Shown here: piece by piece, positions 11,470-29,274 of the stretch
How positions within the stretch are numbered: position 1 is the first letter of the stretch
Layout of the letters: every line of letters starts with the position of its first letter
DNA from: Domibacillus indicus
GTDB taxonomy: Bacteria > Bacillota > Bacilli > Bacillales > Domibacillaceae
Direction: 5' to 3'
Assembly: GCF_023715895.1 (NCBI RefSeq)
Contig: NZ_JAMBOO010000016.1
Location: 1 to 64,000, forward strand
DNA: 64,000 nt
The notes under the pieces: model-generated
What the model was told of the DNA's origin: nothing
The model's input: only the letters and a program-made list of their open reading frames with translations
Database searches by the model: none
Translations under genes and position numbers: made by a program

Positions 11470-11701
11470 TTCCTCACTCCTTCTTTATAGAACAGTTTAC
11501 ATAGTAAATTTTAACAAAGCAGACTTTGAATGAGCAAGGCAGGCATTGGCAATCGAATTAATTCGTTTAATCCCTTCTAGCCTCTTTCTCTCAAATTGTC
11601 TGTAATCACATAAAAGTATCTGACAAGAAAAACGGGTATACTAAAGCTATCTGAATATCCTTATACCTTAAATAAGTAATCAGCTAAAAGGGGGCGTGCA
11701 G

Positions 11702-12298: not shown

Positions 12299-12306
12299 AC
12301 ACGAAC

Positions 12307-12346
12307 GCAAAAAAGTGCAGATCTCCAGATGGTCTACACTTTTTTC
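12307..12346. terminator. Bidirectional terminator between yyaC and the HPr-like gene
   Basis: AAAAAAGTG..AGA.CT pairs with GG.CTACACTTTTTT across a 4-6 base loop, with T runs on both strands. It serves convergent genes. Confidence 0.75.
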
Positions 12347-12354
12347 ATTTACAT

Positions 12355-12603
12355 TTATACGACTCCAACTGGCAGACTTTGTTTCCATAATACACTCGCC
12401 ATCGCCAATTTTGCTTTTTCTTCGTCCGGTCCATGAATCTCTAATTTAAATGAGCTTGAGCTTAAAATACTATAGGTTAATCCTGGGATACTTTTAGCGT
12501 CTATCATTTTGTGATCTGTAATAATAACGATACTTGACTTATACTGGCTGGCAGTTTGATTGATTTCTGCTACGATGTGTGCGGTCGTCTTATCTAAAGA
12601 CAT
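12355..12603 (-). CDS. Crh/HPr-like protein lacking His15, paralogue 1
   Basis: This product has 82 residues from ATG 12603 (ribosome site AAAGGG). It follows the HPr fold: INQTASQY matches helix 1 and IDAKSIPGLTYS matches the HPr Ser46 segment (KSI.G). The active His15 motif (GIHARPA) is replaced by TAHIVAE, with no His at the catalytic position and no Pro18, so PTS phosphotransfer is not expected. The Ser46-equivalent is kept, as in Crh, which acts with CcpA. It is the last gene after the CitMHS transporter. A second copy lies beside aconitase. Role as a CcpA co-regulator is inference. Confidence 0.75.
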   Translation of the reverse strand: MSLDKTTAHIVAEINQTASQYKSSIVIITDHKMIDAKSIPGLTYSILSSSSFKLEIHGPDEEKAKLAMASVLWKQSLPVGVV

Positions 12604-12691
12604 GCTCATCACCCTTTCGAAAAGTGAAGTGCGTTATTCTTGCTGGATCGGTAAAGGTTTATGATTTTCTTGAGCTTTCCTGTACATGGTT

Positions 12692-14002
12692 TTACAAAGA
12701 AAAAGCACCGGTGAGCAATGAGACTGCAATCATAATAATCGATGTTCCAACAGCCCATAGAAGCGTAAACCGTTGAAATTCTCCAAAGTCAACCTTCACC
12801 ATTCCTACTAGTAAATACGTAGAAGCCACAAGCGGGCTGAGCAAATGCACAGCTGGTCCCATCAAAGAAGCACGTGCTACTTCTACAGCCGGAACTCCAT
12901 AGGTAGAAGCTGCTTCCGCAAGTATTGGGAGAATGCCGAAATAGTACGCATCATTTGACATAAAAAACGTAAACGGCATACTCGCAACAGCTGTAATAAT
13001 CGCAAAATGCGGACCCCATGCTTCTGGTATAATGCTTACTAGGCTGTTGGCCATTGCATCTACCATCTTCGTACCGGACAGTATGCCTGTAAATACACCT
13101 GCTGCAAATACAAGGGATACAACGGCTAAAACGTTGCTTGCATGAGCAGCGATTCTCGCTTTTTGTTCTTCTAGTTTCGGATAGTTAATCAGAATCGCTA
13201 CAGCAAAAGCAATCATAAACAAGTACTGCAGTGGAACTAAACCAAGAATAAGGGTTACCATAAGGGCTACAGTTAAAGCAAAGTTGATTAAACGAAGCTT
13301 TGGACGCTTTGTATCAACTCCCTCTAATGTTGCAGCATTCTCACTGTACTTTTGCTGTTCTGAATAGAAATCCCCCAAATCAATCACGCCTAAACGCTTT
13401 CGCTCTCTAAGTCCAAAAACGTAAGCAGTGAATAAAACCCAAATGGAACCGCCAACCATTGCCGGAACAAGCGGAACAAACACATCAGCCATTTCGAGCT
13501 GCAGCGCACTCACGACTCGTGCCATTGCGCCAGCCCAAGGCGTAATATTCATCACCGAGTTTCCTAATACGGCAATCGCTGCTAATATTAACGGATGCAT
13601 ACCAATTCTTTTGTACAAAGGAAGCATAGCTGAAATGGTGATCATATACGTGGTAGTTCCATCGCCATCCAGAGAAATAAGCAATACTAAGACCGCTGTT
13701 CCGAGAGTAATTTTTAAAGGGTCACCCTTCACAAATTTAAGAATTTTTCCTACAACAGGGTCAAACAAACCTGCGTCAATCATAACACCGAAATACAAGA
13801 TGGCGAACATAAGCATAACACCTGTCGGGGCCAGCTGCTCAATTCCGGCTAAGGACATTTCACCGATTTTCGCAAAGGAAAAACCGGCAAAAAGAGCAAA
13901 AATGCTTGGAATAACCATTAATGCGATTAACGCACTGATCCTATTCGTCATGATCAAAAACATAAATACGCAAATCATAGCGTATCCTAAAATTGCTAAC
14001 AT
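12692..14002 (-). CDS. CitMHS family metal-citrate:H+ symporter, copy 1
   Basis: This 436-residue protein has about 11-12 membrane helices. The conserved elements APTGVMLMFAILYFGVMIDAG and DGDGTTTYMITISAMLPLY are typical of CitM/CitH carriers, which import citrate complexed with Mg2+ or Ca2+. A cre-like site lies 15-30 bases upstream of the start. It follows a TIM-barrel isomerase gene by about 60 bases and precedes the HPr-like gene, forming an operon with an LDH2-type dehydrogenase. The true substrate may be another di- or tricarboxylate. Confidence 0.92.
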   Translation of the reverse strand: MLAILGYAMICVFMFLIMTNRISALIALMVIPSIFALFAGFSFAKIGEMSLAGIEQLAPTGVMLMFAILYFGVMIDAGLFDPVVGKILKFVKGDPLKITLGTAVLVLLISLDGDGTTTYMITISAMLPLYKRIGMHPLILAAIAVLGNSVMNITPWAGAMARVVSALQLEMADVFVPLVPAMVGGSIWVLFTAYVFGLRERKRLGVIDLGDFYSEQQKYSENAATLEGVDTKRPKLRLINFALTVALMVTLILGLVPLQYLFMIAFAVAILINYPKLEEQKARIAAHASNVLAVVSLVFAAGVFTGILSGTKMVDAMANSLVSIIPEAWGPHFAIITAVASMPFTFFMSNDAYYFGILPILAEAASTYGVPAVEVARASLMGPAVHLLSPLVASTYLLVGMVKVDFGEFQRFTLLWAVGTSIIMIAVSLLTGAFSL

Positions 14003-14016
14003 CTAAGTTCCCCCTT

Positions 14017-14032
14017 TTGTTTACGCTTTCAT
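14017..14032. promoter_or_regulatory. cre-like site before CitMHS copy 1
   Basis: TTGTTTACGCTTTCAT matches 14 of 16 cre consensus positions and lies just upstream of the transporter start. Confidence 0.5.
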
Positions 14033-14060
14033 TTATTGGAAATAAGGATAGAACAGAGAG

Positions 14061-14882
14061 TTAAGCCCTGTTTCGTTCCTTAATCATTCCTATTAAGAAT
14101 TCAAAAGCGTCTTTTGCTTCTGAATAACTATCTTCTCCCTGATTAATTTCCGGAGTAATAAAACCTTTATAGTTTAAAGAAATCAGTGATTGAATAACTT
14201 CCTCGAATTCGAACGTTCCTTTTCCTGGTGCCTTGCGGCTGCTGTCGGCTATGTGAAGGTAGATCAACTTTTTATGAGACTTTTCGAAATTTTCCGTTAT
14301 CGATTCACCTTCCATTTTCATGTGATAAACATCCAGCATTAGTTTTAGGTTTGGCAGGTTCATAGACTCTAAGAAAGAAAACGCATCTAAAGTGGTATGA
14401 AGATTATTCATAGCGGTTCGACTTTGAGGCTCTAGTGCTACCTCGATTCCAGCTTTTTGTGCGTATTCGCATATCTGCTCGAACCCTTCCTTCATCCAGA
14501 CCCATGATTGATCCGAATTCTCTTTATCAATCTCGCCTCTTAGCTTTCCAATACTCACCGGACAATCGAACTGGGAGGCAAAGTCTACTATCTTTTTAGC
14601 CCGCTCCACAGCTGCTGCCCTCGTTTCCTGGTTCTTAGCGGTAAATGTTAATTGATCGTCACTGACAACCGGGCCTGTCCCAACTGCTGCAATTTGAAGG
14701 TCCAATCGCTGTACTAAGCTGTGAATCAGAGAGACATCTACCTCTTCCGGATTTCGGGTAAGCAGTTCAATACCTGAATAGCCAATTCCTTTGAGCTGGG
14801 AAAGAGCATCTTTTGTATCTCCCTTGTATCCCAGGAGCGGTTTTTTTGTTTCTTCTGTTAAAAAAGGATACGCTAGCTTCAT
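14061..14882 (-). CDS. Sugar phosphate isomerase/epimerase-like TIM barrel (AP endonuclease 2 fold)
   Basis: This product has 273 residues from ATG 14882, behind GGAAGGAAG. It has xylose-isomerase-like TIM-barrel segments: GYSGIELLTR, VALEPQSR (metal-binding Glu), MLDVYHMKMEG (Asp and His) and ITPEINQGED (Glu). Such proteins isomerise or epimerise hydroxy-ketones, for example hydroxypyruvate or 3-keto sugars, with a divalent metal. It sits between an LDH2-type dehydrogenase and a citrate-type transporter, suggesting a hydroxy-acid substrate. A perfect 11-bp inverted repeat lies between it and the upstream gene. Confidence 0.82.
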   Translation of the reverse strand: MKLAYPFLTEETKKPLLGYKGDTKDALSQLKGIGYSGIELLTRNPEEVDVSLIHSLVQRLDLQIAAVGTGPVVSDDQLTFTAKNQETRAAAVERAKKIVDFASQFDCPVSIGKLRGEIDKENSDQSWVWMKEGFEQICEYAQKAGIEVALEPQSRTAMNNLHTTLDAFSFLESMNLPNLKLMLDVYHMKMEGESITENFEKSHKKLIYLHIADSSRKAPGKGTFEFEEVIQSLISLNYKGFITPEINQGEDSYSEAKDAFEFLIGMIKERNRA

Positions 14883-14948
14883 GTCTTCCTTCCTTTCTGC
14901 TGACAAACTAGTTAACAGTCATGATAGAATCTTGCTAAAAGTTTCTTC

Positions 14949-14991
14949 AATCCGTATACACAAGAATACACCTGAAAAACGTATACGGATT
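14949..14991. repeat. Perfect 11-bp inverted repeat in an operon gap
   Basis: AATCCGTATAC (14949-14959) and GTATACGGATT (14981-14991) flank 21 bases. It may be a regulator binding site (each arm also contains the palindrome GTATAC) or a processing hairpin. No T run follows, so a terminator is unlikely. Confidence 0.7.
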
Positions 14992-15007
14992 AAAGACCAT
15001 TCATTTA

Positions 15008-16093
15008 TTAGGAATTTAACGCAATTTCATTTAACTGACTGGAGATATCAATTCCATACTCCAAGCCGGTTTCTTGAAGGGTTTTAATCACTTCTTCTGT
15101 TAAAGGAATACCTGTATCCAGGCGCTTAGCTGCTGTTTTTTCTTCCGGCTCTCCCGGAATCAAAATTTCTTCAAACCCTTGTGCTTTTGGCAATGCTTTA
15201 GCACGCTTTACGAATGTATCCATCCGATCATCAAACTCATCTTTCGATACAAATAAGTCTGGCCGAATGGCGATAAACAGGTGACCAACATTCTGCGGTT
15301 CAGAATGATCAAAGTAAAGGCTTTTCACGTCGCCTCCATAATTCGCTCCAGTCAGTACGCCTGCAAGAAGGTCCATTAACATCGCCAGCGCAGAGCCCTT
15401 CGCTCCGCCGAATGGAAGGCAGACACCTTCAAATGCTTTAGCCGCATCCGTTGTCGGGGCTCCGTCTTTATCGAGGGCTAAGCCTGGAAGAATTGGTTCA
15501 CCGTGTGTGGCCGCTAAGCGGATTTTTCCTCGTGCAATAACAGTCATGGCCATATCTAATACATACGGTACTTCTTCTTTTCCGCCCGGGACGCCTGCGG
15601 CAAAAGGGCTGGCTCCCAAGAAAGCTGTACGTGAGCCCCAAACAGGAAGTGCTGGAGAAGAATTCGTATAAGCAAAAGAAAGATAGCCTTTTTTAATGGC
15701 GTCCTTTACATACAGCGCAGCCATTCCATAATGTGTGCTGCGGCGTACACCAACAAGGCCGATTCCATTTTTCTCCGCCAATGAAACCGCTTCCTCCATT
15801 GCGCGATGACCAGCCAAAAATCCCATTCCATCATCACCATCGACAAGTGAAACAGCTGGAAAAACATTTTGAACGGTAATATTAGGCTGCGGGTTTACGA
15901 CCTTGCGTTTAATCCGCTCTAAGTACATTGGAATACGGGAAGCCCCATGTGAATCGAGACCGCGCAAATTTGCTGCTACTAAGTCATGCGCCACAACAGC
16001 TGCATCCTCTTTTCTCAAGCCCCCCGCTTCAAAAAGCTGTGCAGCAATATTTGTTAATGTTCCAGGATCGATTATCATCTGTTTTTCTGTCAT
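15008..16093 (-). CDS. LDH2/malate dehydrogenase (YlbC/AllD) family oxidoreductase
   Basis: This 361-residue NAD(P)-dependent dehydrogenase has the family features: N-terminal RGLDSHGASRIPMYLERI, STHYGMAALY with the catalytic His, PFAAGVPGG and GGAKGSALAMLMDLLAGVLTG near residue 230. It is distinct from the Rossmann-type LDH/MDH. Members oxidise malate, lactate, sulfolactate, ureidoglycolate or 2,3-diketogulonate. It is the first gene of the operon with a TIM-barrel isomerase and the CitMHS transporter, so a 2-hydroxy acid substrate is likely. The start follows GTGGAGG. Confidence 0.88.
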   Translation of the reverse strand: MTEKQMIIDPGTLTNIAAQLFEAGGLRKEDAAVVAHDLVAANLRGLDSHGASRIPMYLERIKRKVVNPQPNITVQNVFPAVSLVDGDDGMGFLAGHRAMEEAVSLAEKNGIGLVGVRRSTHYGMAALYVKDAIKKGYLSFAYTNSSPALPVWGSRTAFLGASPFAAGVPGGKEEVPYVLDMAMTVIARGKIRLAATHGEPILPGLALDKDGAPTTDAAKAFEGVCLPFGGAKGSALAMLMDLLAGVLTGANYGGDVKSLYFDHSEPQNVGHLFIAIRPDLFVSKDEFDDRMDTFVKRAKALPKAQGFEEILIPGEPEEKTAAKRLDTGIPLTEEVIKTLQETGLEYGIDISSQLNEIALNS

Positions 16094-16325
16094 TTCAAGT
16101 CCTCCACTCTATTTGTCTTTAGTTGATGCTTGATCTACTTAAATCGTAAAGGACTTTTCAAAAGAATTAAAATACAAATCATTATAGGTTGTTTATAAAA
16201 AATTTGAATACCTGCCTTTTTCATTCAACTTTGCCTATGCTTAAATTGGAATGGTTTTTTCAATCGGAGCTTGTTTGTCTTGCTTCCTTGTATAACCTCC
16301 TTTTTATAAGAAAGTTTTTTAAACA
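16094..16325. other. Intergenic region upstream of the LDH2-type operon
   Basis: This should hold the promoter of the LDH2/TIM/CitMHS operon and is the likely target of the neighbouring LysR regulators. I could not assign convincing -35/-10 boxes, as is common for activator-dependent promoters. Confidence 0.3.
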
Positions 16326-16374
16326 GCAAAAAAGCGCTCTCCTGCGCAATAATCACTGCACAGGGAAGCACTTT
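16326..16374 (-). terminator. Terminator of the LysR gene at 16388
   Basis: On the minus strand AAAAGTGCTTCCCTGTGCA pairs imperfectly with TGCGCAGGAGAGCGCTTTTTT, ending in a T run. Confidence 0.65.
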
Positions 16375-16387
16375 TCCCTTCTCTACT

Positions 16388-17248
16388 TTACCAGTTACCC
16401 GCCTCGATAAAGTCAATAAAAGCTTTTATTAAATTCATTTCGAGCGATTCTTCATTATAATACATCCATGTATTTCTTTTAATCCGCTCGCCTTCCCGGT
16501 TTGTGATTTCTATTTTATATAAATTATTTGTGCCCTTTAAAATTTCACTCGGCAGGATGCCATATCCTATTCCATTTACCACCATGTTTTTACAAGTCTC
16601 TACATCATCTACTTCTATGCTGGTTGATGGTGCATCTGAATAGTGTTCTTTCCACCAGTCATCGATGATGGCTTTAAGATGAGAGTCGGTTTGATAGTCA
16701 ATTCTCGACTCATTTGGAAGATCGGCTAGATGAATCTTATGCACGGATACAACGGACATGGTTTCCTCAAAAAGAAGATGCTTTTTCCCTTCCCATTTAT
16801 AATCTCCCCGTACAAACCCAATATGAATGTCCTGGTTATAAACGGCTTTAACAATTTCGCTGCTCCATCCGGTTAGTATATCAAATTCAACTTCCGGGTA
16901 CTTTGACTGGAATTTTTTCAACATAGGGCCAAGCTTATATTTAGTAAAAAAATTAGATGCCCCAATTCTTAATATACCCGAAGGATTTTTACTAATCTCT
17001 GTTAGGGCTGCTTTTACATTTTGATAATGTTCAAGTACTCTTTTAGCGCTTTTAGCCAGATATTCTCCTTCGGCCGTAAACTCAACTCCTCTTCTTCCAG
17101 GGTTCATGATCTTAACCCCAAACTCATCTTGTATTTGCTTTAAACGGTTGGTTAAGGCTGGCTGGGAGATAAATAAAACGGCTGCTGTCTTTGTAATATT
17201 TTTTTGCTGGTAAAGTTCTTTTAAGATTTCCCAATCACGGTACTCCAC
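16388..17248 (-). CDS. LysR family regulator, paralogue A
   Basis: This 286-residue protein has an N-terminal winged helix (DWEILKELYQQKNITKTAAVL, then SQPALTNRLKQIQDEFG) and a C-terminal periplasmic-binding-like effector domain. The start is GTG at 17248 with GGAAGG about 12 bases upstream. It closely resembles three other LysR proteins in this window (17305, 25065, 29275), including the HIGFVRGDY segment and VNGIGYGILPS. The best known relative in function is CcpC, which controls citrate-cycle genes. Likely target: the adjacent LDH2/CitMHS operon. Confidence 0.88.
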   Translation of the reverse strand: MEYRDWEILKELYQQKNITKTAAVLFISQPALTNRLKQIQDEFGVKIMNPGRRGVEFTAEGEYLAKSAKRVLEHYQNVKAALTEISKNPSGILRIGASNFFTKYKLGPMLKKFQSKYPEVEFDILTGWSSEIVKAVYNQDIHIGFVRGDYKWEGKKHLLFEETMSVVSVHKIHLADLPNESRIDYQTDSHLKAIIDDWWKEHYSDAPSTSIEVDDVETCKNMVVNGIGYGILPSEILKGTNNLYKIEITNREGERIKRNTWMYYNEESLEMNLIKAFIDFIEAGNW

Positions 17249-17304
17249 CGTCTTTATCTACCTTCCATCAATTGAACAACCGATTCTTCCATCTGGAAAC
17301 TTCC

Positions 17305-18189
17305 TTATTTTCTTCTAGACATGTGGCTCAAATAGTCATTTTCGATAAATTGAACAAATGTCTGTACTATTTTTAATTCCATTGATTCTTTATATGAATA
17401 CATCCACGTTCTTCGCAAAATTGGATCACCATTTTTGTCTTTTAAAGTTATTTTATGTAAGGATTCTTCACCTTCTAGGATCATGCTGGGCAGAATGCCA
17501 TACCCTATCCCATTCAGCACCATTTCCTTGCATGTATCCACCCTGTTCACTTCAATGCTGGTTAAAGGTGAAGCAGCATAATTTTCAACCCACCAATTAT
17601 CAATTAATAACTTTAGTAAAAACTCACTTTTATACTCAATTCTTCGTTTGAAGGGCAACTGGTCGAGTTCTAATTTATCGATTGATGCGACGCACAGGGT
17701 TTCTTCAAAAAGCAAATGCTTCTGATCTCTCCAGCTATAATCACCTCGTACAAACCCAATGTGAATGTCTTTATTGTAAAGGGCTTTCATTATCTCACTG
17801 CTCCAGCCCGTACGCACCTTAAATTCTACTAAAGGATACTGTTCTTTAAATTTCTTTAAAATAAGCGGAAGTTTATACTTTGTGAAAAAATTAGAAGCCC
17901 CTATCCGTAACGTCCCTCTTACCTCGCTGTTCATGTTAAGCACATTTTCTTTGATTTCCCGGTAAAGAGACAGAGCTTCATCCGCTGCCGTGGCTAGGTA
18001 CTCCCCCTGAGGCGTAAGGTGAATACCCTTTTGGCTGCGGGCAGCTATAATCTTTATACCCAGTTCACGCTCCATAAGCTTCAAACGACTCGTTAGGGCC
18101 GGCTGGGTTAAAAAAAAAGAGTGAGCGGTCTTTGTGATGTTTTTGTGCTCATACAAAGCCTTGATGATTTCCCAATCCCGGTAATCCAT
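17305..18189 (-). CDS. LysR family regulator, paralogue B
   Basis: This 294-residue protein starts behind GCGGAGGCGG. The wHTH reads DWEIIKALYEHKNITKTAHSF with TQPALTSRLKLMERELG. The effector domain shares IGASNFFTKYKL, HIGFVRGDYSW and VLNGIGYGILPSMIL with paralogue A, so tandem duplication is likely. It lies 31 bases downstream of malic enzyme on the same strand and 56 bases upstream of paralogue A; possible targets are malic enzyme, the LDH2 operon, or both. Confidence 0.88.
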   Translation of the reverse strand: MDYRDWEIIKALYEHKNITKTAHSFFLTQPALTSRLKLMERELGIKIIAARSQKGIHLTPQGEYLATAADEALSLYREIKENVLNMNSEVRGTLRIGASNFFTKYKLPLILKKFKEQYPLVEFKVRTGWSSEIMKALYNKDIHIGFVRGDYSWRDQKHLLFEETLCVASIDKLELDQLPFKRRIEYKSEFLLKLLIDNWWVENYAASPLTSIEVNRVDTCKEMVLNGIGYGILPSMILEGEESLHKITLKDKNGDPILRRTWMYSYKESMELKIVQTFVQFIENDYLSHMSRRK

Positions 18190-18220
18190 TCGACCGCCTC
18201 CGCTCTTTTTTTAAATATGA

Positions 18221-19444
18221 TTATCGTAATATAAGCGCTTCTGCTGACTCTTCAGGATTGAGCGCTGCCAGTCGAGCACGAATTTTATCCGTATTTATTG
18301 GCTGTCGTGCCACCTTGGTCTTCATTGCAGCCTCGGCTACTTTGATGGCTACATTCACCGCAACCCTGCGGTCAAATGCAGATGGAATAACATACTCAGG
18401 GCTTAGTTCTTCGTCCGATATAAGCTCAGCAATCGCGTAAACTGCTGCCCGCTTCATTTCTTCATTTATTTCCTTAGCACGCACATCAAGCGCTCCTCGA
18501 AAAATACCAGGAAAAGCTAACACGTTGTTTACCTGGTTCGGGAAATCTGATCTTCCTGTGCCAATGACTAATGCCCCCGCTTCTTTCGCTTCATCTGGCA
18601 TGATTTCCGGTGTCGGGTTTGCCATGGCAAAAATAATCGGATCCTGGTTCATAGAACGGACCATTTCTTGAGTGAGAGCACCTGCTGCTGATACTCCGAT
18701 AAATACGTCCGCTCCTACTAATGCTTCAGCCAACATTCCTTTCTTGTTCTCTTTATTGGATAGGCGGGCCATTTCTTCTTTGAAGGAGTTCTTGCCGAAA
18801 GGACGTCCTTCGTAGATGATTCCTTTAGTGTCACACAAAATAATGTCATCTACTCCGATGTGGCGTAACAGCTTCATAATGGCAACGCCTGCTGCACCTG
18901 CACCATTAATCACTACAGAAAGGTCTTCTATTTTCTTTCGGGCTAGTTTAGCCGCATTGACAAGGCCCGAAGCGGTAACGATCGCGGTGCCATGCTGATC
19001 ATCATGAAATATAGGAATTTGACATACTTCCTGCAGCCGGCGTTCAATCTCAAAACATTGAGGAGCTGCAATATCCTCAAGATTCACACCGCCAAAAGAC
19101 GGTTCCAGTATCTTCACAGTTTCTGTCATTTTATCAGTGTCTGTTGTGTCCAAGCAAATAGGGAAAGCATCTACATCGGCGAATGCTTTAAACAGTAACG
19201 CCTTTCCTTCCATTACGGGCATGGACGCTTTTGGACCGATATTTCCAAGACCCAGCACCGCTGTACCATTAGATACAACAGCCACCAGGTTCCCTTTCAT
19301 TGTGTAATCATATATTTTGTCGTCATCCTTTTTGATTTCTAAACAAGGTTCTGCAACGCCTGGAGAATAAGCTAAACTTAAATCATTCATATTTTGTACG
19401 GTAACCTTAGAATGAATTTCGATTTTCCCCTTTTTTTTCTTCAT
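18221..19444 (-). CDS. NAD(P)-dependent malic enzyme with a disrupted 5' end
   Basis: The frame encodes 407 residues with the [12 protein letters not shown] substrate motif, the [10 protein letters not shown] segment, HDDQHGTAI and a Rossmann domain ([15 protein letters not shown]). It converts malate to pyruvate plus CO2. The in-frame ATG at 19444 has no ribosome site. An ATG at 19478 behind GGAGAG reads [17 protein letters not shown] in another frame, matching the usual malic enzyme N-terminus, and would join this frame if one base were lost from the A8G4 run (19427-19438). So the gene has a one-base frameshift or slippage site near codon 16. Confidence 0.9.
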
Positions 19445-19478
19445 GCATTTGTAGTACAGCTTGTTTAGGATTCGTCAT
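19427..19478 (-). other. Frameshifted 5' extension of malic enzyme (A8G4 run)
   Basis: This segment holds the probable true start (ATG 19476-19478, ribosome site GGAGAG) and a run of eight A and four G where the frame must change by one base to enter the main frame. Without a shift the peptide stops after about 23 codons. Confidence 0.7.
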
Positions 19479-19611
19479 CTCTGTATCTCTCCATTCTTCT
19501 CTCTTATGAGTGGAACACAAAGGCATAGCTTATTTGATTTTTTTCAAATCTTGCCGGTTCACTGTTTTTTTAGATCTCTTTTCTATTAGTTTTCTTAAAC
19601 CTTGAAAACTA

Positions 19612-20619
19612 TTACATCTGCAAGGATTGATTTAACTTAGAATGAGGCGGAATTAAAACAATTTTCCCTTTGTTTTTTCTTTCTTCGATTAACGCATGGC
19701 TCTTGGCTGCGTCGGCCAGTTTATAGGTATGGCCAACAACCATGTTTAACTGCTCCTCTTCTAAATAATGAATAATTTGTGCGGCAACAGGCTGTACAAA
19801 TTCCGGCTTATGCTTTCTTACAATCCCAAAGCTGAAGCCGCGTATAGACCGGCAGCTTGCATGAAGGTCTTTCGTTTGGATCAACCCGCTCTTTCCTCCG
19901 GCATTGCCAAAGTGTGCAATTCTTCCGAACATCGCCAGGCAGTCCAGGCTTTTTTCGGTTACGTCTCCTGCAATGGAATCTAAAACAATGTCAACTCCTG
20001 CACCGTTTGTGAATTCGAGTGTTTTTTTGGCAAAGTCTTCTGCTGATCTGTTAATGACATGGTCCGCTCCAGATTTTAAAACAACGTCTGCTTTTTCATC
20101 CTTGCTTACAGTACCGATTACCTTGCCCGCACCTAGCAGCTTGGCTAATTGAATGGCCGTTGTCCCTACACCTCCGCCGGCTGCATGAACCAAGACGGTT
20201 TCCCCTGCCTGAATACGTGCAACGTCCGCAAGAAGCTGGTAAGCTGTAAACGAAGCAATGGGTGCCGCTGCAGCTGTTAAAAAGTCAATCTTTTCTGAAA
20301 TAGGGAAGGTAAGATTTGCAGGCGCAACCGCATACTCAGCATAAGCCCCGCCTTTCGGAAAGGCTATTACTCTTTGCCCGACGGTGAATCCGTGTACGTT
20401 CCCGCCTACTTCTGTAATGACTCCTGCTGCATCAATTCCTGGCACGTAAGGAACCTTTCCATTTCCTTTGGATCCCCGCCGTGTTTTAATATCACTAAAG
20501 TTCACTCTGCAGGCTTCCACTTTGATGAGCACTTGACCAGGACCCGCCTGAGGCTGGTCAATGTCGGTATAGGTTAATAAATCTGGACCTCCGAATTGAG
20601 TCGCGACAATTGCTTTTAT
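19612..20619 (-). CDS. Zinc-less quinone oxidoreductase (MDR family), apparent ATA start
   Basis: Read from ATA at 20617-20619 the product has 335 residues, the normal family length, and begins (I)KAIVATQFGGPDLL as MDR quinone reductases do. The ribosome site AAGGAGG sits 7 bases before this ATA, so it is almost certainly the evolved start position. The first conventional start would be GTG at 20532, which loses 29 residues of the catalytic domain. The nucleotide-binding motif VHAAGGGVGTTAIQLAKLLG is intact. It would reduce quinones or enones with NADPH. A terminator separates it from the upstream SDR. Confidence 0.82.
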   Translation of the reverse strand: MKAIVATQFGGPDLLTYTDIDQPQAGPGQVLIKVEACRVNFSDIKTRRGSKGNGKVPYVPGIDAAGVITEVGGNVHGFTVGQRVIAFPKGGAYAEYAVAPANLTFPISEKIDFLTAAAAPIASFTAYQLLADVARIQAGETVLVHAAGGGVGTTAIQLAKLLGAGKVIGTVSKDEKADVVLKSGADHVINRSAEDFAKKTLEFTNGAGVDIVLDSIAGDVTEKSLDCLAMFGRIAHFGNAGGKSGLIQTKDLHASCRSIRGFSFGIVRKHKPEFVQPVAAQIIHYLEEEQLNMVVGHTYKLADAAKSHALIEERKNKGKIVLIPPHSKLNQSLQM

Positions 20620-20642
20620 AAAAGGGCCTCCTTCTTATTGTG

Positions 20643-20704
20643 ATAAAAAAGCCTCCTTAACCAATAGAATAAGAAAACGTTCTTATACTATAAATCAAGG
20701 AGGC
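20643..20704 (-). terminator. Long terminator hairpin after the SDR gene
   Basis: GCCTCCTT (20697-20704 on the minus strand) pairs with AAGGAGGC (20651-20658), extended by ATAG.ATAAGAA pairing. Six T follow on the minus strand. Confidence 0.75.
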
Positions 20705-20752
20705 ATCCAAAATCAGAAGACTATCCAGTCCCACTATATAAATCTCTTTTAC

Positions 20753-21517
20753 TTATATAGCTGTCCAGCCGCCGTCTACACGGATCGTTTCACCTGTAAT
20801 AAAATTCGCCATGTCAGAAGCCAGGAATAGAACCGCTCCTGTCACATCATTAGGCTTCGCTAATGAACCGAGCGGTATCCGATTCAGTACATCTTGGTGG
20901 AAGTCAGGATCTTCAAACATCGCTTTGGTGAAATCTGTTTCAATAAATGTCGGAGCTACCGCATTTACTTTTATCTGATGCTGAGCCCATTCAACCGCCA
21001 AAGCTTTTGTCAGCTGTACCGCTCCTCCTTTACTGGAGCAGTAGGCTGCACGTTTGATGTAGCCAACAAATGCCATCTGGGACACAATATTAATGATTTT
21101 ACCCGGATGTTCCTGCTCAATCATGTATTTCCCAGCCCGCTGGGTACAAAAGAATGTTCCTTTTAAGTTTGTATCAAGCACGCGATCCCAGTCTTCTTCT
21201 GTCACTTCTAATGACGGCTTTGCAATATTAATGCCTGCATTATTCACCAGCACATCGATCCGGCCAAGACGTCTATAAGCAAGGTCGATCATGTTGTAAA
21301 TTTGCGGGACATCCTGGATATCCGCTGTTAAATAGGAACATTGAGGATTATGCTGTTGCAGTTCCGCAGCTGCTTCTTGAAGATCTTGCTCGTTTCTGCC
21401 AGTAATTAAAACGTCTGATCCTAACTCAGCGAAGGCAAGGGCAATACTTTTGCCAATTCCCTTGCTTCCGCCGACAATGACTACTTTTTTGTTTTTTAGT
21501 TCTGAAAAATAACTCAT
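20753..21517 (-). CDS. Short-chain dehydrogenase (gluconate 5-dehydrogenase/FabG-like)
   Basis: This 254-residue SDR starts behind CAGGAGGC. The cofactor loop is VGGSKGIGKS, then NNAG, a Ser in NIVSQMA and YCSSK (Tyr-x-x-x-Lys), ending RVDGGWTAI. It is the last gene of the operon racemase-ALDH-Fe ADH-SDR. The arrangement suggests successive oxidation or reduction of a hydroxy-carbonyl compound. The substrate is not known; gluconate 5-dehydrogenases share similar sequence but so do many other SDRs. Confidence 0.83.
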   Translation of the reverse strand: MSYFSELKNKKVVIVGGSKGIGKSIALAFAELGSDVLITGRNEQDLQEAAAELQQHNPQCSYLTADIQDVPQIYNMIDLAYRRLGRIDVLVNNAGINIAKPSLEVTEEDWDRVLDTNLKGTFFCTQRAGKYMIEQEHPGKIINIVSQMAFVGYIKRAAYCSSKGGAVQLTKALAVEWAQHQIKVNAVAPTFIETDFTKAMFEDPDFHQDVLNRIPLGSLAKPNDVTGAVLFLASDMANFITGETIRVDGGWTAI

Positions 21518-21581
21518 GATTTTGCCTCCTGCTGATTCATTTAGTTCAATGAATCTGGACGTGTATGTTTAACGGAGCTTA

Positions 21582-22763
21582 TCAAGCATGTGATGGTTCT
21601 TCAACAGCGCCGTATGCTTCTTCATAAATCTTCTGGATTTCTTTTACTGTCAGCCATCTTGGATTGTTATTCAACAGACGATCGACTTTGCTTGCTTCTT
21701 CCGCCAAAGCTGGAATATCGGAAGCTGTTACGCCCACTTCTTTCAAGCTGGAAGGAATGCCGACATCCTGGGACAGCTGGGCAAGCGCCGAAACAGCACG
21801 ATCTGCAGCTTCACGAAGTGATAATCCTTCAATATTTTCTCCAAGCGCTTCTGCTACCTCCGCAAATTTCTCCAGGTCCGCTACTACATTGTATTTCATG
21901 ACATACGGCAGCAGGAGCGAATTCGCTACACCATGCGGCACTTTGAATTTACCGCCAAGTGGATAAGCAAGAGCGTGAACGGCCCCAACCCCTGCATTTC
22001 CAAGAGAGATCCCTGCCAGAAGGCTGCCCATTGCCATATCTTCGCGTGCTTTCAGGTCTTTTCCGTTATACACGGCTTTACGAATAGAACGCGAAATCAG
22101 CTTGATTGCCTGCAAAGCGATGCCGTCTGTTAGTTCCCCCGCACGAATAGCCGTATAAGACTCTACAGCATGCACTAACGCATCCATTCCAGTTGCCGCT
22201 GTAACCGCTGGAGGGACAGTCAATGTTAGTTCAGCATCTACAATGGCTACACTTGGAAGCAGGTACGGGCTGACAATTCCTTTTTTCACTTTGTCTCTTG
22301 TATCAGTAAAAATAGCATTGTACGTTACTTCCGAGCCAGTTCCGGCTGTAGTCGGCACTAGAATTGTAGGAACTCCCGGATTCTTTACTTTGTCAATGCC
22401 GACAAAATCGCGCACATCTTCTTTGTTTGTTAACATGATGGAAAGCACTTTCGTAATATCAAGTGCACTGCCGCCTCCCACACCAATAAGAAGGTCATAG
22501 CCTTTCCCTTCAATCTGTGCAGCAAGCTGTTCAAGATTTTCAAATGGCGGTTCCGGTATCACATCATCAATGATATCTGCTTCCAGGCCAGCCGCAGCTA
22601 GTGGTTCTGTCACTTTAGACAAAAGACCTGTTTCACGGATAATTTTATCCGTTACAATAATTACTTTTGTTGCCTCTAGTTTCTTAGCCTGCTCCCCTAC
22701 TTCAGCAATAGAGCCTGGTCCTGTAATAAGCGTACCTGCTGTACAAAAATATGAAGTTCCCAT
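21582..22763 (-). CDS. Iron-containing alcohol dehydrogenase
   Basis: This product has 393 residues from ATG 22763 (ribosome site GAGGAGG). The family features are GVGGGSALDITK for nucleotide binding, GTGSEVT, and metal ligands in GMDALVHAVESY and HALAYPLGGKFKVPHG. It is a group III metal-dependent alcohol dehydrogenase, related to those acting on 1,3-propanediol, butanol, lactaldehyde or 4-hydroxybutyrate. It lies 11 bases after the aldehyde dehydrogenase gene, so the pair probably handles alcohol, aldehyde and acid forms of one compound. Confidence 0.9.
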   Translation of the reverse strand: MGTSYFCTAGTLITGPGSIAEVGEQAKKLEATKVIIVTDKIIRETGLLSKVTEPLAAAGLEADIIDDVIPEPPFENLEQLAAQIEGKGYDLLIGVGGGSALDITKVLSIMLTNKEDVRDFVGIDKVKNPGVPTILVPTTAGTGSEVTYNAIFTDTRDKVKKGIVSPYLLPSVAIVDAELTLTVPPAVTAATGMDALVHAVESYTAIRAGELTDGIALQAIKLISRSIRKAVYNGKDLKAREDMAMGSLLAGISLGNAGVGAVHALAYPLGGKFKVPHGVANSLLLPYVMKYNVVADLEKFAEVAEALGENIEGLSLREAADRAVSALAQLSQDVGIPSSLKEVGVTASDIPALAEEASKVDRLLNNNPRWLTVKEIQKIYEEAYGAVEEPSHA

Positions 22764-22774
22764 GTTTTTCCTCC

Positions 22775-24223
22775 TCAACCTAGTTTAATTCCGATAAATT
22801 TAATTTCTGTCATATCATCAATCGCGTATTTAACACCTTCTTTTCCAATACCACTCAGCTTTACACCGCCATAAGGATAGTTGTCTTGGCGGTAGGTAGA
22901 CGTTTCATTAATCCAAACGCCTCCTGTTTCAAGACCTTCTGCTACACGCATTGCACGATTAATGTCGCTTGTAAATACTCCTGCTTGGAGGCCAAACACG
23001 GAATCGTTAGCCATTTCAATCACTTCTTCTTCTGTTTCAAATGGAATCACAGATACAATTGGAGCAAACGTTTCTTCGCAAACTACTTTCATATCCGGTT
23101 TCACATCAACAAGAATAGTTGGCTCAAGCAGCGTGCCTTCCCGATTGCCGCCTGTTGCAAGCCTTGCCCCTGCTTTTACCGCTTCCTGAATCCAGCTATG
23201 AGCACGAATCGCTTCTTTTTCACTAATCATTGGCCCGATATCTGTTGATTCGTCAGCTGGATCTCCAAGAGTTAACACTTTAACAGCAGAAACATATTGG
23301 TCCAGAAACTCTTGGTAAACCCCTTTTTGCACATAAATGCGCTGCGCCGAAATACACACCTGGCCTGAGAATGCAAAAGCCCCTCGTACCAGCCCAGCAG
23401 CCGCCGCTTTGACGTCCCCATCCTCAAAAACAATGTTTGGAGAGTTAGACCCTAGTTCTAACGTTACTTTTTTCAATCCTGCTTTTTGACGAAGATCAAT
23501 TCCTACAGCCGGGCTTCCTGTGAATGTAATTTTGCTGACACGTGAATCTGTTACCAGAATGTCGCCAACTTCTGATCCGTTTCCAATTACTAGGTTCAGT
23601 GCACCTTTCGGCAGTCCAGCTTCTTCAAAAAGCTTTACAAGCATGAACGCGGAAAGCGGCGTTTTGCCTGCTGGTTTTAACACAACAGTATTTCCTGCTG
23701 CAAAAGCTGGAGCTAATTTATGTAAGGCCAGGTTTAGCGGGAAATTAAACGGTGTTATCGCAGATACCACTCCGATTGGAAGGCGGCGCACCATGCCAAT
23801 CCGATTTTCTCCTCCAACTGCTGCATCCATTGGAACGAGTTCTCCTTCGATTTTCTTCGCTTCATCTGCTGCAAAGCGAAGTACCTGTACAGCTCTTCCT
23901 ACTTCTCCGCGACCATCCCGGATCGGCTTTCCTGCTTCTAATACGAGAATGCGTGCAAATTCTTCTGTCTGCGCTTCCAGTAAGTCAGCGGTTTTACGTA
24001 AAATATCAGCACGCTGGTAAGCTGGCATTTTTTTCATGGTTTCATGAAAAACACGGTGAGCCGACTGGATCGCTCTTTCTGCATCTTCTGCAGATGCTAA
24101 ACTTACTTTTCCTACTACTTCACCGTTAAATGGGCTAATGACATTAGCCGTTCTCCCTTCTGCTCGACTGATAGGATTTCCTTCGATTAATGATGTTACA
24201 TGCATCATTTTAGTTTTAATCAT
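22775..24223 (-). CDS. NAD(P)-dependent aldehyde dehydrogenase
   Basis: This 482-residue ALDH has the catalytic Cys in FSGQVCISAQR, the general base Glu in TLELGSNSPN, and the PFNFPLNLALHK and FTGSPAVG motifs. It is closest in style to the lactaldehyde/glyceraldehyde/succinate semialdehyde group. The start at 24223 follows AAGGAGGC, and the gene overlaps the racemase stop by 8 bases, so translation is coupled. Substrate is unknown; neighbours include an Fe-ADH and an SDR. Confidence 0.9.
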   Translation of the reverse strand: MIKTKMMHVTSLIEGNPISRAEGRTANVISPFNGEVVGKVSLASAEDAERAIQSAHRVFHETMKKMPAYQRADILRKTADLLEAQTEEFARILVLEAGKPIRDGRGEVGRAVQVLRFAADEAKKIEGELVPMDAAVGGENRIGMVRRLPIGVVSAITPFNFPLNLALHKLAPAFAAGNTVVLKPAGKTPLSAFMLVKLFEEAGLPKGALNLVIGNGSEVGDILVTDSRVSKITFTGSPAVGIDLRQKAGLKKVTLELGSNSPNIVFEDGDVKAAAAGLVRGAFAFSGQVCISAQRIYVQKGVYQEFLDQYVSAVKVLTLGDPADESTDIGPMISEKEAIRAHSWIQEAVKAGARLATGGNREGTLLEPTILVDVKPDMKVVCEETFAPIVSVIPFETEEEVIEMANDSVFGLQAGVFTSDINRAMRVAEGLETGGVWINETSTYRQDNYPYGGVKLSGIGKEGVKYAIDDMTEIKFIGIKLG

Positions 24224-24902
24224 TTAAAACTGCCTCCTTATTAGATACTTCTTGAATGATTGCTTTTACGCTGATTTCAGGACTTGTTAAGATTGGCTTT
24301 GGTTTTGCTTTTAATGTTTTTAACGCTCTAGCCATAGAAAATTGGGCAAAAAGAATAACGTCGCATTCTAACGCTAACTCTTCCGCTTTTTGATGAATCA
24401 ATTGATCATGCTTTGCTTGATTTCGATTCTGGAGAGCTTCGAAAGCTTCAGGGATAATCACTGTGTCAATTGAGATATCTTTTCCATGCTTTGCAGCAAT
24501 TCCTTCTAAAAGTCCCGTAGTGGTCGGTCCTGCCGCCTCTACTGTAGCAATCACGCCGATCCGGCTTCCAATCTCTACGGCTCTCTCAAGCATACTTAAA
24601 TCCGCACTTAACATGGGAACCTCAAATAGATGGCTGATTTGGGCTACTGCCGGCGTAAAAGATGAGCAGGTCAGCAATATTCCGTCTACTCCATAATCAG
24701 CCGCTTTCTGGGCTAGATTCAGCAGCCGCCTGACCATATCTTTCGTTACTGTATTCGTTTCATTTAATTCAAAAATCAAACTTTCATCCATAAAGTTCAC
24801 AACCGTGACATCCGGCGCATGCTCGCGAAAAGCTTCCAAAATCGGTTGTACAGAATTCATGGTTGCGTGAATCAGCCCAATTTGGCATTCTTTTTCCTGC
24901 AT
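24216..24902 (-). CDS. Asp/Glu racemase superfamily protein with one catalytic Cys
   Basis: This 228-residue protein starts behind GGGAGGGAG. The first active-site Cys is present in LLTCSSFTP, but the second, normally in a CTSM-like segment, is Gln (FAQFSMARAL). Two-base racemisation therefore seems unlikely; one-Cys relatives include decarboxylases and isomerases of this superfamily. It is the first gene of the racemase-ALDH-Fe ADH-SDR operon and is divergent from a LysR regulator, which probably controls the operon. Confidence 0.78.
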   Translation of the reverse strand: MQEKECQIGLIHATMNSVQPILEAFREHAPDVTVVNFMDESLIFELNETNTVTKDMVRRLLNLAQKAADYGVDGILLTCSSFTPAVAQISHLFEVPMLSADLSMLERAVEIGSRIGVIATVEAAGPTTTGLLEGIAAKHGKDISIDTVIIPEAFEALQNRNQAKHDQLIHQKAEELALECDVILFAQFSMARALKTLKAKPKPILTSPEISVKAIIQEVSNKEAVLND

Positions 24903-25064
24903 CTCTACTCCCTCCCTTGAATTCGCTTACAGAGATGATAAAAAATTTTTAAAAAAACTTACTCACTTTCTGTACGATAAATATATTATAGTTACATTAA
25001 TTAATAAAATATTTAATTTTTATAAAGAAGCATAGATTTTTTCGATGATAAGGTGGGAAATAGA
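24903..25064. promoter_or_regulatory. Divergent promoter region, racemase operon and lysR
   Basis: A 160-base AT-rich intergenic segment between divergent genes, the usual site for a LysR regulator to control its neighbour. A TATTATAG -10-like box lies near 24990. The 73-bp element seen at aconitase and CitMHS copy 2 is not present. Confidence 0.4.
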
Positions 25065-25943
25065 ATGGGAACAAAAGACTGGATTATCTTACAAACCGTT
25101 TACGAGGAAAAAAATATTACCAAAGCAGCGGAACGGCTGTATATTGCACAGCCAACCTTAACTTATCGGCTTCAGCAGATCGAGAAAGAATTTAATATTA
25201 AACTTTTTTATCGTGGAAGAAAAGGTGTTGATTTTACGGAAGAAGGAGAATTATTGGTTAAGCACGCTGCCGCTATGTTAAAAGAAGAACAGAAAATAGA
25301 GGAACAGCTTCAGAATAGAGAAGGTGAAGTAAAAGGAACTTTGCGGTTAAGCGTATCAAGGACCTTCGCTTTTTACCGTCTGCCTCAGCTGCTCAAAGCT
25401 TTTCATAAAAAATTTCCCTATGTTGAATTTCATGTAACAACAGGCGTTAATCATGAGGTGATTCAAACGGTTTATAAACAGGAAGCACATATAGGGATTG
25501 TAAGAGGAAATCACACATGGCCAAACAAAAGCATTACGATTTCCAAAGAGCATATTTGTGTTCTCTCTTCTCAAAAAATTACTTTAGAAGAGCTTCCTTC
25601 CATGAGAAGAGTTGTTTACCAAACAGATCCGGCATTAAATATGGTAATTGAAAATTGGTGGAAGGCTCATTTTTCTAAACCGCCTATCAATCATATGGAT
25701 GTTGATAATGTAGAAATAGCCAAAAGAATGGTGCTGAATGGGTTCGGCTACTGTATCGCACCTAGTATTGTATTAGAGGATCATGATCTGTTGCAGCAAG
25801 TTGTTTTAGTGGATCAAAACGATTCTCCTGTTATTTGGAAAACACGTATGTTATACCGGGAAGAGTTAACAGAATTGGCAATGGTAAAAGAGTTTGTTGA
25901 TTTTGTACAAATGTATGGTTTAATGACTTCTGAAGAAAAATAA
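25065..25943 (+). CDS. LysR family regulator, paralogue C
   Basis: This product has about 292 residues from ATG 25065 (ribosome site AAGGTGG; an in-frame GTG lies at 25053). The wHTH reads DWIILQTVYEEKNITKAAERL with AQPTLTYRLQQIEKEF. It shares HIGIVRGNHTW and VLNGFGYCIAPS with the other LysR copies. It is divergent from the racemase-ALDH-ADH operon, the probable target. Confidence 0.88.
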   Translation: MGTKDWIILQTVYEEKNITKAAERLYIAQPTLTYRLQQIEKEFNIKLFYRGRKGVDFTEEGELLVKHAAAMLKEEQKIEEQLQNREGEVKGTLRLSVSRTFAFYRLPQLLKAFHKKFPYVEFHVTTGVNHEVIQTVYKQEAHIGIVRGNHTWPNKSITISKEHICVLSSQKITLEELPSMRRVVYQTDPALNMVIENWWKAHFSKPPINHMDVDNVEIAKRMVLNGFGYCIAPSIVLEDHDLLQQVVLVDQNDSPVIWKTRMLYREELTELAMVKEFVDFVQMYGLMTSEEK

Positions 25944-26023
25944 AAAAATTGCTAGTTAATTAAACCACTCATTCTAAATAAAACCTTTGTTATTCACTAC
26001 TTTTTATTCCTTTTTCTATTGGG

Positions 26024-26062
26024 CACAGAAAAGCTCCTGATCAGTGCCAGGAGCCTTTCTGT
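26024..26062 (-). terminator. Terminator downstream of the second HPr-like gene
   Basis: The stem AGGCTCCTG/CAGGAGCTTTTCTG, extended by CAGAAA/TTTCTG pairing, lies immediately after the HPr-like gene on the minus strand. Confidence 0.65.
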
Positions 26063-26313
26063 CATTCATTCACGCATACAGGTACATTATGCTGATGAAA
26101 TACATGGGCCATCGCTTTTTTTGCTTCATCTTCATCCGGCCCATGAATTTCAAGTTCAAAGGTTTTGGAGTTTAGAACAGAATACGTCAGCCCAAGAATA
26201 CTCTTTGCATCAAAACTTTTACGATCAGTTTTAATGACAATGCTGGATTGGAATTCCTGTGCTGTTTTATTAATTGCCACAACAAATTCGGCAAATGTAT
26301 TGCTTATTTCCAT
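26062..26313 (-). CDS. Crh/HPr-like protein lacking His15, paralogue 2
   Basis: This 83-residue protein starts behind GAAGGAGGAG. It aligns with the first paralogue (12355) over its whole length: SSIVI.TD, FDAKSILGLTYSVL and LEIHGPDE are shared. The Ser46-type site (KSILGL) is kept, but the His15 region reads TFAEFVVAI, so there is no phosphocarrier His. This is the Crh pattern. It lies 63 bases after aconitase on the same strand and is probably co-transcribed. Phosphorylation by HPr kinase and binding to CcpA are inferred. Confidence 0.75.
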   Translation of the reverse strand: MEISNTFAEFVVAINKTAQEFQSSIVIKTDRKSFDAKSILGLTYSVLNSKTFELEIHGPDEDEAKKAMAHVFHQHNVPVCVNE

Positions 26314-29217: not shown

Positions 29218-29274
29218 CTTTCTTCTTTAGAAACCACAAAGGGTATGATATGTTTTAGAAAAAGGAGGACGCAT

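Follow-up and report, generated by a model that had tools for sequence, protein, structure and literature searches.

The genes at positions 12355-12603 and 26062-26313 of a 64,000-nucleotide stretch of Domibacillus indicus DNA (the whole analysed stretch, called the window below) encode HPr-like proteins that retain Ser46 and lack the first β-strand (β1), and profile and tree comparisons place them in what is, on sequence grounds, a discrete family and apparently an undescribed branch of HPr. The family members are most likely putative HPrK/P substrates acting on catabolite control. More specifically, we give a probability of roughly 0.45 to the reading in which the Ser46-phosphorylated family protein would be a Crh-like co-effector in the HPrK/P-CcpA circuit, providing acid operons with a built-in shutdown. 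The relevant features of the window are as follows.

12304-12349, minus strand: terminator-like hairpin after HPr-like copy 1 (z -4.1; 1/200 shuffles equally stable)
12355-12603, minus strand: HPr-like copy 1, 82 amino acids, Ser46 retained, without the His15 loop and β1, with atypical Pro48 and Leu80
12692-14002, minus strand: CitMHS citrate:proton symporter copy 1 (TIGR00784, 645 bits, cut-off 259.7), directly upstream of HPr-like copy 1
14017-14032, minus strand: exact cre box ATGAAAGCGTAAACAA, 14 bases ahead of the CitMHS 1 start codon
14061-24902, minus strand: remainder of the cassette ending in HPr-like copy 1 (profiles and resemblance to an annotated plasmid cassette)
24917-24932: cre-like box of the copy-1 cassette
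25053-25943, plus strand: CcpC-like LysR regulator (239 bits to NF058504, under the cut-off of 400)
26025-26062, minus strand: terminator-like hairpin after HPr-like copy 2 (z -5.5; 0/200 shuffles equally stable)
26062-26313, minus strand: HPr-like copy 2, 83 amino acids (Ser46 being residue 38), HPr fold without β1 (AlphaFold pLDDT 89.9)
26377-29106, minus strand: aconitase AcnA (TIGR01341, 1315 bits), directly upstream of HPr-like copy 2
29048-29063, minus strand: cre-like box with one mismatch, just within acnA; no mismatch in orthologues L040, L041, and L211
29203-30144, plus strand: CcpC-like LysR regulator, divergent from acnA (245 bits to NF058504, under the cut-off of 400)
30207-31508, minus strand: CitMHS copy 2, profile match (longest ORF 30204-31592)
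31528-31543, minus strand: exact cre box TTGTAAGCGTATACAA, 19 bases ahead of the CitMHS 2 profile match; upstream of CitMHS 2 only given a start at 31508, as the longest ORF starts at 31592
32029-35791, minus strand: RraA-like gene with TctA, TctB, and TctC (BLAST against references; TctA also identified separately)

The initial annotation had described two Ser46-only HPr-like genes at the ends of CitMHS and aconitase operons. Both ORFs were confirmed: PF00381 (PTS-HPr) scores were 28.5 bits for copy 12355 and 35.4 bits for copy 26062 (curated cut-off 23), and the KSI.GLTYS motif was kept as KSIPGLTYS and KSILGLTYS, respectively. The number of copies had been understated, since the genome carries five family members, not two. 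Copy 12355 may start at an ATG after GAAAGGGTGATGAGC (12355-12603) or at a GTG (12355-12612), and copy 26062 starts at the ATG after GAAGGAGGAGAAAGC. A PHROGs search gave no matches. Each gene is indeed the final one ahead of a strong hairpin, separated by 88 nt from CitMHS 1 (copy 1) or by 63 nt from aconitase (copy 2), and neither gap folds more strongly than shuffled sequence. The cassette ending in copy 1 further contains epimerase-like, Ldh2-like, two LysR, malic enzyme-like, zinc dehydrogenase-like, SDR, iron alcohol dehydrogenase, aldehyde dehydrogenase, and Asp/Glu racemase family genes, several of these names being based on the annotated plasmid cassette. The dN/dS values of copy 26062 against two orthologues were low (0.02/0.84 and 0.07/0.46; the pair with the nearest orthologue L040, at 0.026/0.040, is too similar for judgement), which indicates that this copy is under purifying selection and that the ORFs are not chance. 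Copy 12355 is a family outlier on a long branch of the tree, with Pro48 and Leu80 each found in 1/94 distinct members.

The absence of His15 and Pro18 reported earlier is due to an N-terminus some eight residues short in both window proteins, so that all of β1 and the active-site loop are gone as well. The predicted models begin at helix A with no β1 present, and an additional C-terminal strand is predicted in the family. All 39 top Foldseek matches were entries for HPr, Crh, or NPr, alone or in complex (TM ≤0.70), including the HPr S46D entry 1opd, and the alignment with the Crh structure 1mo1 gave 30% identity. Without the His15 loop and first strand the family cannot carry out PTS phosphotransfer; it shares the fold and the Pfam match with the HPr phosphocarriers, but the window proteins stay under the TIGR01003 cut-off (22.3 bits for copy 12355 and 30.7 bits for copy 26062 vs. 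47.9). In two plasmid records, members are annotated as "HPr family phosphocarrier protein" and given a PTS GO term; a phosphocarrier label implying sugar-PTS function is untenable for these proteins. Lys45 and Ser46 were found in 94/94 distinct members (kept out of 112), with Ser46 partly preselected in the 80 motif-scan loci because the scan motifs include KSI.GL. HMM searches with no motif demand gave KSM, KSF, and KSL members, in which the scan motif is broken, and Ser46 was kept in all those read. Ser46 caps helix B and also occurs in HPr of E. coli, a species without HPrK/P, so its conservation alone is no proof of phosphorylation. Position 17 is not conserved in the family, Arg17 being missing together with the 12-18 loop, and Met51 is replaced by Phe, Thr, or Ser. 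We take Arg17 and Met51 to be CcpA or HPrK/P contact positions, and their loss in the aligned members speaks against the standard CcpA contact.

The family profile gave at least 94 bits for members and at most 48 bits for the next HPr/Crh proteins, and the tree (65 of 112 members, filtered by identity) split the 65 family rows from the three HPr/Crh rows of the same genome in 100/100. The description as Crh-like therefore stands for Ser46-only HPr-like proteins and fails for Crh proper: the two copies branch separately, lack Arg17 and β1, and reached only 26.3 (copy 12355) and 27.5 bits (copy 26062) with the NCBIfam Crh equivalog NF010354 (cut-off 123). In B. subtilis the crh locus comprises rapZ, yvcK, and whiA; the D. 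indicus genome has a separate Crh in a locus of this kind (L018, genes named by eye), where the window genes do not lie. Orthology with Crh was thus rejected on the separate Crh and the separate branch. The family resembles B. subtilis Crh (1mo1, 1zvv) in its HPr fold, its Ser46 without His15, and its occurrence in genomes with HPrK/P and CcpA; unlike Crh, which has β1 and Arg17, it lacks β1 and the loop, is multi-copy and often cassette-linked, and has the predicted extra strand. The Crh dimer swaps its N-terminal strand (PMC3724859), and that strand does not exist in the family. Several observations go against a simple Crh role: Arg17 is lost, Met51 is replaced, the Paenibacillus core copies (see below) are unlinked, and copy 12355 has Pro48. 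Members are scattered unevenly across Bacillales and frequent in Paenibacillus, with up to six copies seen per genome; a literature search of open PubMed Central papers found no description of the family.

In an order-wide HMM search, 22 of 30 family loci had a citrate, tricarboxylate, aconitase, PrpF, or RraA gene no more than 5 kb away, vs. 3/16 other HPr-type loci (control, two strains). Two of these three linked control loci encode Crh-type proteins that are full-length and have no His15, one of them right behind CitMHS. In the same-species genome G762 alone, linkage was found for 4/6 family and 2/8 other HPr-type loci, which is not significant (p 0.16). In the motif scan (80 loci out of 448 relatives reported), 25 of the 31 non-core loci lay within 5 kb of carboxylate genes. 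The other 49 form a Paenibacillus-type core, the commonest family members, whose neighbors are genes for an M29 peptidase and for YlaN or ChaA, not carboxylate genes. With these core loci and a cotX-dacA copy (C33, L051, L061, L212) unlinked, a universal carboxylate linkage was rejected. The linkage proposed earlier does recur in other genera, with TctCBA, PrpF, RraA, aconitase, and CitMHS as partners; it is missing at the Paenibacillus core and is not specific to CitMHS, since linkage to Tct is the most frequent kind (16 tree rows vs. 3 with CitMHS as the nearest gene). The pairing arose repeatedly in the tree, with at least three changes for Tct, two for RraA, and two for CitMHS on starred branches. 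A syntenic cassette, complete with a family copy of its own, is also present on a Priestia plasmid.

The same species also has a second Ser46-only lineage, whose proteins are full-length and have β1, Arg17, and Met51 but not His15 (L220:7799-8068, GLESRAA; L213:9086-9358, GLQARGA). With the family profile these proteins scored 29.9 and 22.2 bits vs. 118 and 122 bits for the two family members in L213. In G762 one Crh-type gene lies 285 bases behind CitMHS and one adjoins a TctA remnant. Two Ser46-only lineages thus occur in the same carboxylate niche, and because the second is there too, Ser46-only HPr proteins seem to be what gets recruited to carboxylate loci. The G762 gene directly behind another CitMHS gene is an observation that favors local CcpA feedback.

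The transporter promoters had also been noted to carry cre-like sites, and the boxes at 14017-14032 and 31528-31543 proved to be exact. The window has 20 cre matches (≤1 mismatch) vs. 7.0 expected, a number reached by 0/100 shuffles. Over 41 loci, cre boxes lay upstream of 41/91 carboxylate genes vs. 15/381 controls, and exact boxes upstream of 19/91 vs. 0/381, in a test that draws its controls from the same loci, lets orthologues and divergent gene pairs enter repeatedly, and classes CitT-type and racemase-family genes as carboxylate genes. A cre-like box lay upstream in 8/49 Paenibacillus-type core loci. Repression of citM was reportedly found by Warner and Lolkema in 2003 to depend on Crh. 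The window matches CcpA-Crh control of citM in having a CitM-type transporter with cre (boxes TGAAAGCGTAAACA and TGTAAGCGTATACA) and differs in that the HPr-like gene is inside the operon, whereas B. subtilis Crh is encoded elsewhere. As B. subtilis citM has a cre box, given as TGTAAGCGGATTCA in PMC3463425, cre on citrate genes is expected anyway and the boxes do not implicate the HPr-like proteins.

The D. indicus genome has two HPrK/P genes, CcpA, and Crh. A second HPrK/P was present in just 4/12 genus genomes, exactly those with at least three family copies, and also in G762; its presence is confounded with genome size, and absences are weak evidence, as the HPrK search missed its B. subtilis control. 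Family copy number tracks CitMHS number (rho 0.93, 13 Domibacillus genomes), and each also tracks genome size (0.78 and 0.80).

In the co-effector reading, HPrK/P would phosphorylate Ser46 at high glycolytic flux, the phospho-form made from within the operon would enter the HPrK/P-CcpA circuit, and higher acid-operon expression would lead to readier shutdown once sugar is available again. Less certain is the sign of this effect, taken here as corepression and not antagonism. With the same anatomy, the protein might be an antagonist or decoy that vies with HPr and Crh for access to HPrK/P or ties up CcpA but does not activate it, so that induction of an acid operon would relieve catabolite repression and commit the cell to the acid by positive feedback. 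The intact helix-B motif around Ser46, combined with loss of the Arg17 side of the presumed CcpA contact, fits this, as does the second HPrK/P in high-copy genomes; we consider it unlikely, however, as the operons would have to retain strong cre boxes and at the same time encode a product that weakens their effect, occurrence of the second HPrK/P also tracks genome size, and the Crh-type protein behind CitMHS in G762 retains Arg17 and Met51.

HPr-Ser-P also has non-CcpA roles, in inducer exclusion and with RbsR (one paper is said to describe RbsR with HPr-Ser46-P), and the family could be a Ser46-P switch for a local LacI, CcpC-like LysR, CitS/CitT-type kinase, or transporter. A gene of the LacI type comes next on the Priestia plasmid and is the next one of ordinary size in L196, CcpC-like LysR genes lie near the aconitase and PrpF copies, and CitS/CitT-type genes near Tct copies. 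In six Paenibacillus loci a LacI-like gene (cluster 25) lies no more than seven genes away, but no CitS-type kinase was found within 5 kb of the 49 core loci and no regulator type is common to all family contexts. Since local regulators vary by cassette, a common partner is likelier global, and a local partner appears improbable. Quite improbable is a family with no part in catabolite control, in which Ser46 would merely cap helix B of a binding protein (e.g., for a carboxylate enzyme) or the gene would be a cassette hitchhiker. The core copies outside carboxylate loci, the 8/30 unlinked loci of the HMM search, and Pro48 and the long branch of copy 12355 would agree with it; purifying selection, the repeated pairings, and the second Ser46-only lineage at CitMHS in G762 argue against it, and so does copy 12355 being sister to the cotX-dacA copy and not to the L196 cassette copy despite syntenic cassettes.

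The carboxylate linkage suggests built-in control over the use of citrate and similar acids. A broader picture, which we find doubtful and offer tentatively, is that a new HPr lineage shed β1 and His15, closed its sheet with a C-terminal strand, and became a portable Ser46 part tying mobile carboxylate cassettes, one of them plasmid-borne, to the HPrK/P-CcpA flux sensor. Each cassette would then encode its own catabolite control in place of a single global HPr and Crh, a second HPrK/P might be dedicated to the family, and Crh-type proteins of full length would have entered the niche in parallel. The family offers a small system for the study of Ser46 phosphorylation without His15 chemistry. 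Catabolite control in Bacillota is usually pictured as one HPr and one Crh feeding CcpA; if the broader picture is true, the CcpA co-effector can itself be a local element gained by horizontal transfer.

Two small open reading frames were confirmed on the minus strand, both above the Pfam PTS-HPr cut-off of 23 bits:

12355-12603, minus strand: HPr-like copy 1 (copy 12355), 28.5 bits, Ser46 motif KSIPGLTYS, 88 nt after CitMHS
26062-26313, minus strand: HPr-like copy 2, 35.4 bits, Ser46 motif KSILGLTYS, 63 nt after aconitase

The initial annotation had described two HPr-like proteins that keep Ser46, lack His15 and Pro18, and are encoded last after CitMHS or aconitase, and all of this was borne out. 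Each gene has a plausible ribosome-binding site before it and a strong terminator-like hairpin on its 3' side; the two gaps fold no better than shuffled sequences. Aligned with HPr, both proteins start ~8 residues late, so the loss goes beyond His15 and Pro18 to the whole of beta-1 and the His15 loop. The Crh-like label therefore stands only in part: these are Ser46 proteins of the HPr type without His15, but their build differs from that of Crh. The observation is real and larger than proposed, because the two genes belong to a family with five copies in the window's genome.

Across 94 distinct family members there is no variation at Asp43, Lys45, Ser46, Leu50, Gly66, Asp68, and Ala72 (HPr numbering); members without KSI carry KSM, KSF or KSL, Ser46 still being present. 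The Met that HPr has at position 51 is replaced by Phe, Thr or Ser, and Pro48 and Leu80 are each unique to copy 12355. AlphaFold models of window copy 2 (pLDDT 89.9, pTM 0.79) and of a Paenibacillus core member (pLDDT 85.9, pTM 0.75) both predict helix-strand-strand-helix-strand-helix followed by C-terminal strand residues (80-81 and 76-79, respectively), from which we infer that the C-terminal strand may take the place of beta-1 in the sheet. All of the 39 best Foldseek matches in the PDB were structures of HPr, Crh or NPr, alone or in complex.

The window's assembly has 14 PF00381 matches, and five of these form the one subfamily, the two window genes being joined by:

C95:20681: HPr-like copy 13 bases behind TctA; TctB, TctC, and a CitS/CitT-like pair nearby
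C136:6466: HPr-like copy behind a PrpF-family gene; CcpC-like LysR, CitMHS, and DUF1256 genes nearby
C33:413: HPr-like copy at a contig edge

The genome also encodes ordinary HPr proteins, two HPrK/P genes, CcpA, and a Crh in a rapZ-yvcK-whiA-like locus; most of its 8 CitMHS and 3 TctA genes have no adjacent family copy. Broken HPr-type genes, pieces with internal stops, were seen at L013:4858-5096 (contig C106) and L014:5122-5235 (C44). Two genes lie between the second HPrK/P gene (G000:C113:5514-6416, locus L160) and a gene for a class III fructose-1,6-bisphosphatase-like protein (by eye). Within the genus, a second HPrK/P was confined to genomes with at least three family copies; this is suggestive, although the second gene also follows genome size. 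Strain G762 of the same species (two contigs) has six family copies:

behind aconitase
the C33 type, flanked by cotX-like genes and dacA, with no carboxylate genes (CitMHS, Tct, aconitase, PrpF or RraA) nearby
next to what looks like a TctA remnant, 111 bases away
in a racemase-AldDH-FeADH-SDR cassette, RraA and CitMHS lying ~6 kb further on
behind TctBA
behind PrpF

In G762 the stretch from the aconitase copy to the DUF1256 gene lacks copy 12355 and its cassette. Contig C33 opens with its HPr-like copy (G000:C33:1-700); in G762 and locus L051 the same copy follows a cotX-like pair, and such a pair (named by eye) lies at the window's left end (534-1471), so C33 probably adjoins the window.

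Profile A2, built from 38 members and searched at E 1e-10, detected members in 40/398 genomes class-wide and 24/397 order-wide; in the order search members scored at least 94 bits (18 genomes) and the next proteins at most 48. Eight of 12 genus genomes examined have members, the window's own counted. When 65 members were placed in a tree with three HPr/Crh proteins from the window's genome (82 columns; 23/65 inner branches open), the family separated from HPr/Crh at 100/100. A scan of genome contigs reported 448 relatives, and the best 80 of these 448 loci came from Domibacillus, Peribacillus, Priestia, Jeotgalibacillus, Bacillus, Paenibacillus, Cohnella, and Fontibacillus.

Genes up to 5 kb away were labeled by BLAST against reference proteins (E 1e-15). 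Among the best 80 of 448 loci, 25 lay by carboxylate genes, 49 were of the Paenibacillus core type, adjoining M29 peptidase, YlaN or ChaA, and six were other. The expected recurrence beside CitMHS in other genomes held, but the association is broader, taking in Tct, PrpF, RraA, and aconitase genes too, and does not extend to the Paenibacillus core loci. One common Paenibacillus copy has an M29 aminopeptidase on one side and YlaN on the other (e.g., L073, L205, L207-L210). By the 5-kb rule, 22/30 order-search loci were carboxylate-linked (matched by contig coordinates, plus G002:C6:432818, ~310 bases from CitMHS), and 9/14 outside the genus, vs. 3/16 other HPr-type loci (Fisher p 0.0005 for 22/30 vs. 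3/16). The contrast was 4/5 vs. 1/8 in the window's genome (p 0.03), the single control qualifying through a 36% RraA-like gene (flanks 4.6-5.5 kb), and 4/6 vs. 2/8 in G762 (p 0.16); these p values are rough, since the loci are related to one another. Label changes on starred branches numbered at least three for Tct, two for RraA, and two for CitMHS, so the pairings were gained or lost more than once. A DUF1256 (YyaC-like) gene, of a family associated with sporulation, lies at 11696-12298 and recurs beside CitMHS/PrpF loci holding HPr-like copies (also L012, L052, L053, L055, L056, L211, L214, L216). Four CcpC-like LysR regulators occur in 14 kb (16388-17248, 17305-18189, 25053-25943, 29203-30144), three of which scored 239-258 bits against NF058504 (cut-off 400).

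The cre-like sites claimed at the transporter promoters were also found. With up to one mismatch the window holds 20 matches to WTGNNARCGNWWWCAW (7.0 expected), the exact ones being:

14017-14032: cre box (CcpA operator) by CitMHS copy 1
31528-31543: cre box by CitMHS copy 2, upstream if that gene starts at 31508
9747-9762: match inside a transketolase-like gene

Across 41 loci (-200 to +80 of genes, up to one mismatch, orthologues included), cre-like boxes were present at 41/91 carboxylate genes vs. 15/381 other genes, and exact boxes at 19/91 vs. 0/381; CcpC-like LysR genes, counted apart, gave 7/19. In B. subtilis, citM carries the same type of cre as the window boxes (PMC3463425). The boxes support CcpA control of the cassettes but do not tie the HPr-like protein to it.

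The carboxylate cassette is mobile. Priestia megaterium plasmid NZ_CP127875.1 (L218, 69645-93887) carries one with its own HPr-like gene, in the order aconitase, LysR, RraA, CitMHS, epimerase, Ldh, LacI, HPr-like, zinc dehydrogenase, SDR, FeADH, AldDH, racemase, LysR; its proteins are 44-87% identical to those of the window (CitMHS 79%), and an exact cre box precedes CitMHS. Synteny with this cassette extends over much of window 12.3-25 kb. A further cassette-bearing locus, L196, has a similar gene order and an HPr-like copy 98% identical to the plasmid's. In the tree, copy 12355 nevertheless pairs with the cotX-dacA type (99/97) rather than with the L196 copy, an arrangement suggesting that the two were recruited separately to similar positions. 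A second plasmid match, from Paenibacillus cellulosilyticus, is of the core type. An open reading frame at 58709-59932 resembles an IS605-type OrfB/TnpB protein (by eye).

Both carboxylate-linked control loci of G762 encode full-length Crh-type proteins without His15:

L220:7799-8068 (G762 C1:290822): 285 bases behind CitMHS, 3.6 kb from TctA; GLESRAA replaces the His15 loop
L213:9086-9358 (G762 C2:1747100): by a TctA remnant; GLQARGA

They keep Ser46, Arg17, and Met51 and reach only 22-30 bits against the family profile; unlike the family they are full length, and they are not members of it. A broken relative of the L220 protein lies on C106 in the window's strain. Neither the two His15-bearing HPr proteins of G762 nor its Crh lies by carboxylate genes, so His15-less Ser46 proteins of two builds occur at such loci.

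Arg17 and Met51 are gone in the family, which counts against a corepressor; that the protein is instead an antagonist or decoy seems unlikely to us. The commonest members lie outside carboxylate loci, again a point against a corepressor, and action on another partner ranks just behind the decoy. Ser46 may also be kept for structure; a protein without any role in catabolite control is the least probable reading, and the occurrence of two builds at carboxylate loci favors a Ser46 function rather than chance. The trait common to all contexts is the HPr fold with Lys45-Ser46, not any local regulator, and HPrK/P was found in 13/13 Domibacillus genomes tested. On these grounds we favor, at a probability of roughly 0.45, a role as corepressor: HPrK/P would signal through Ser46 of the HPr-like protein, and this signal would act on CcpA, the corepressor being made within the operon.
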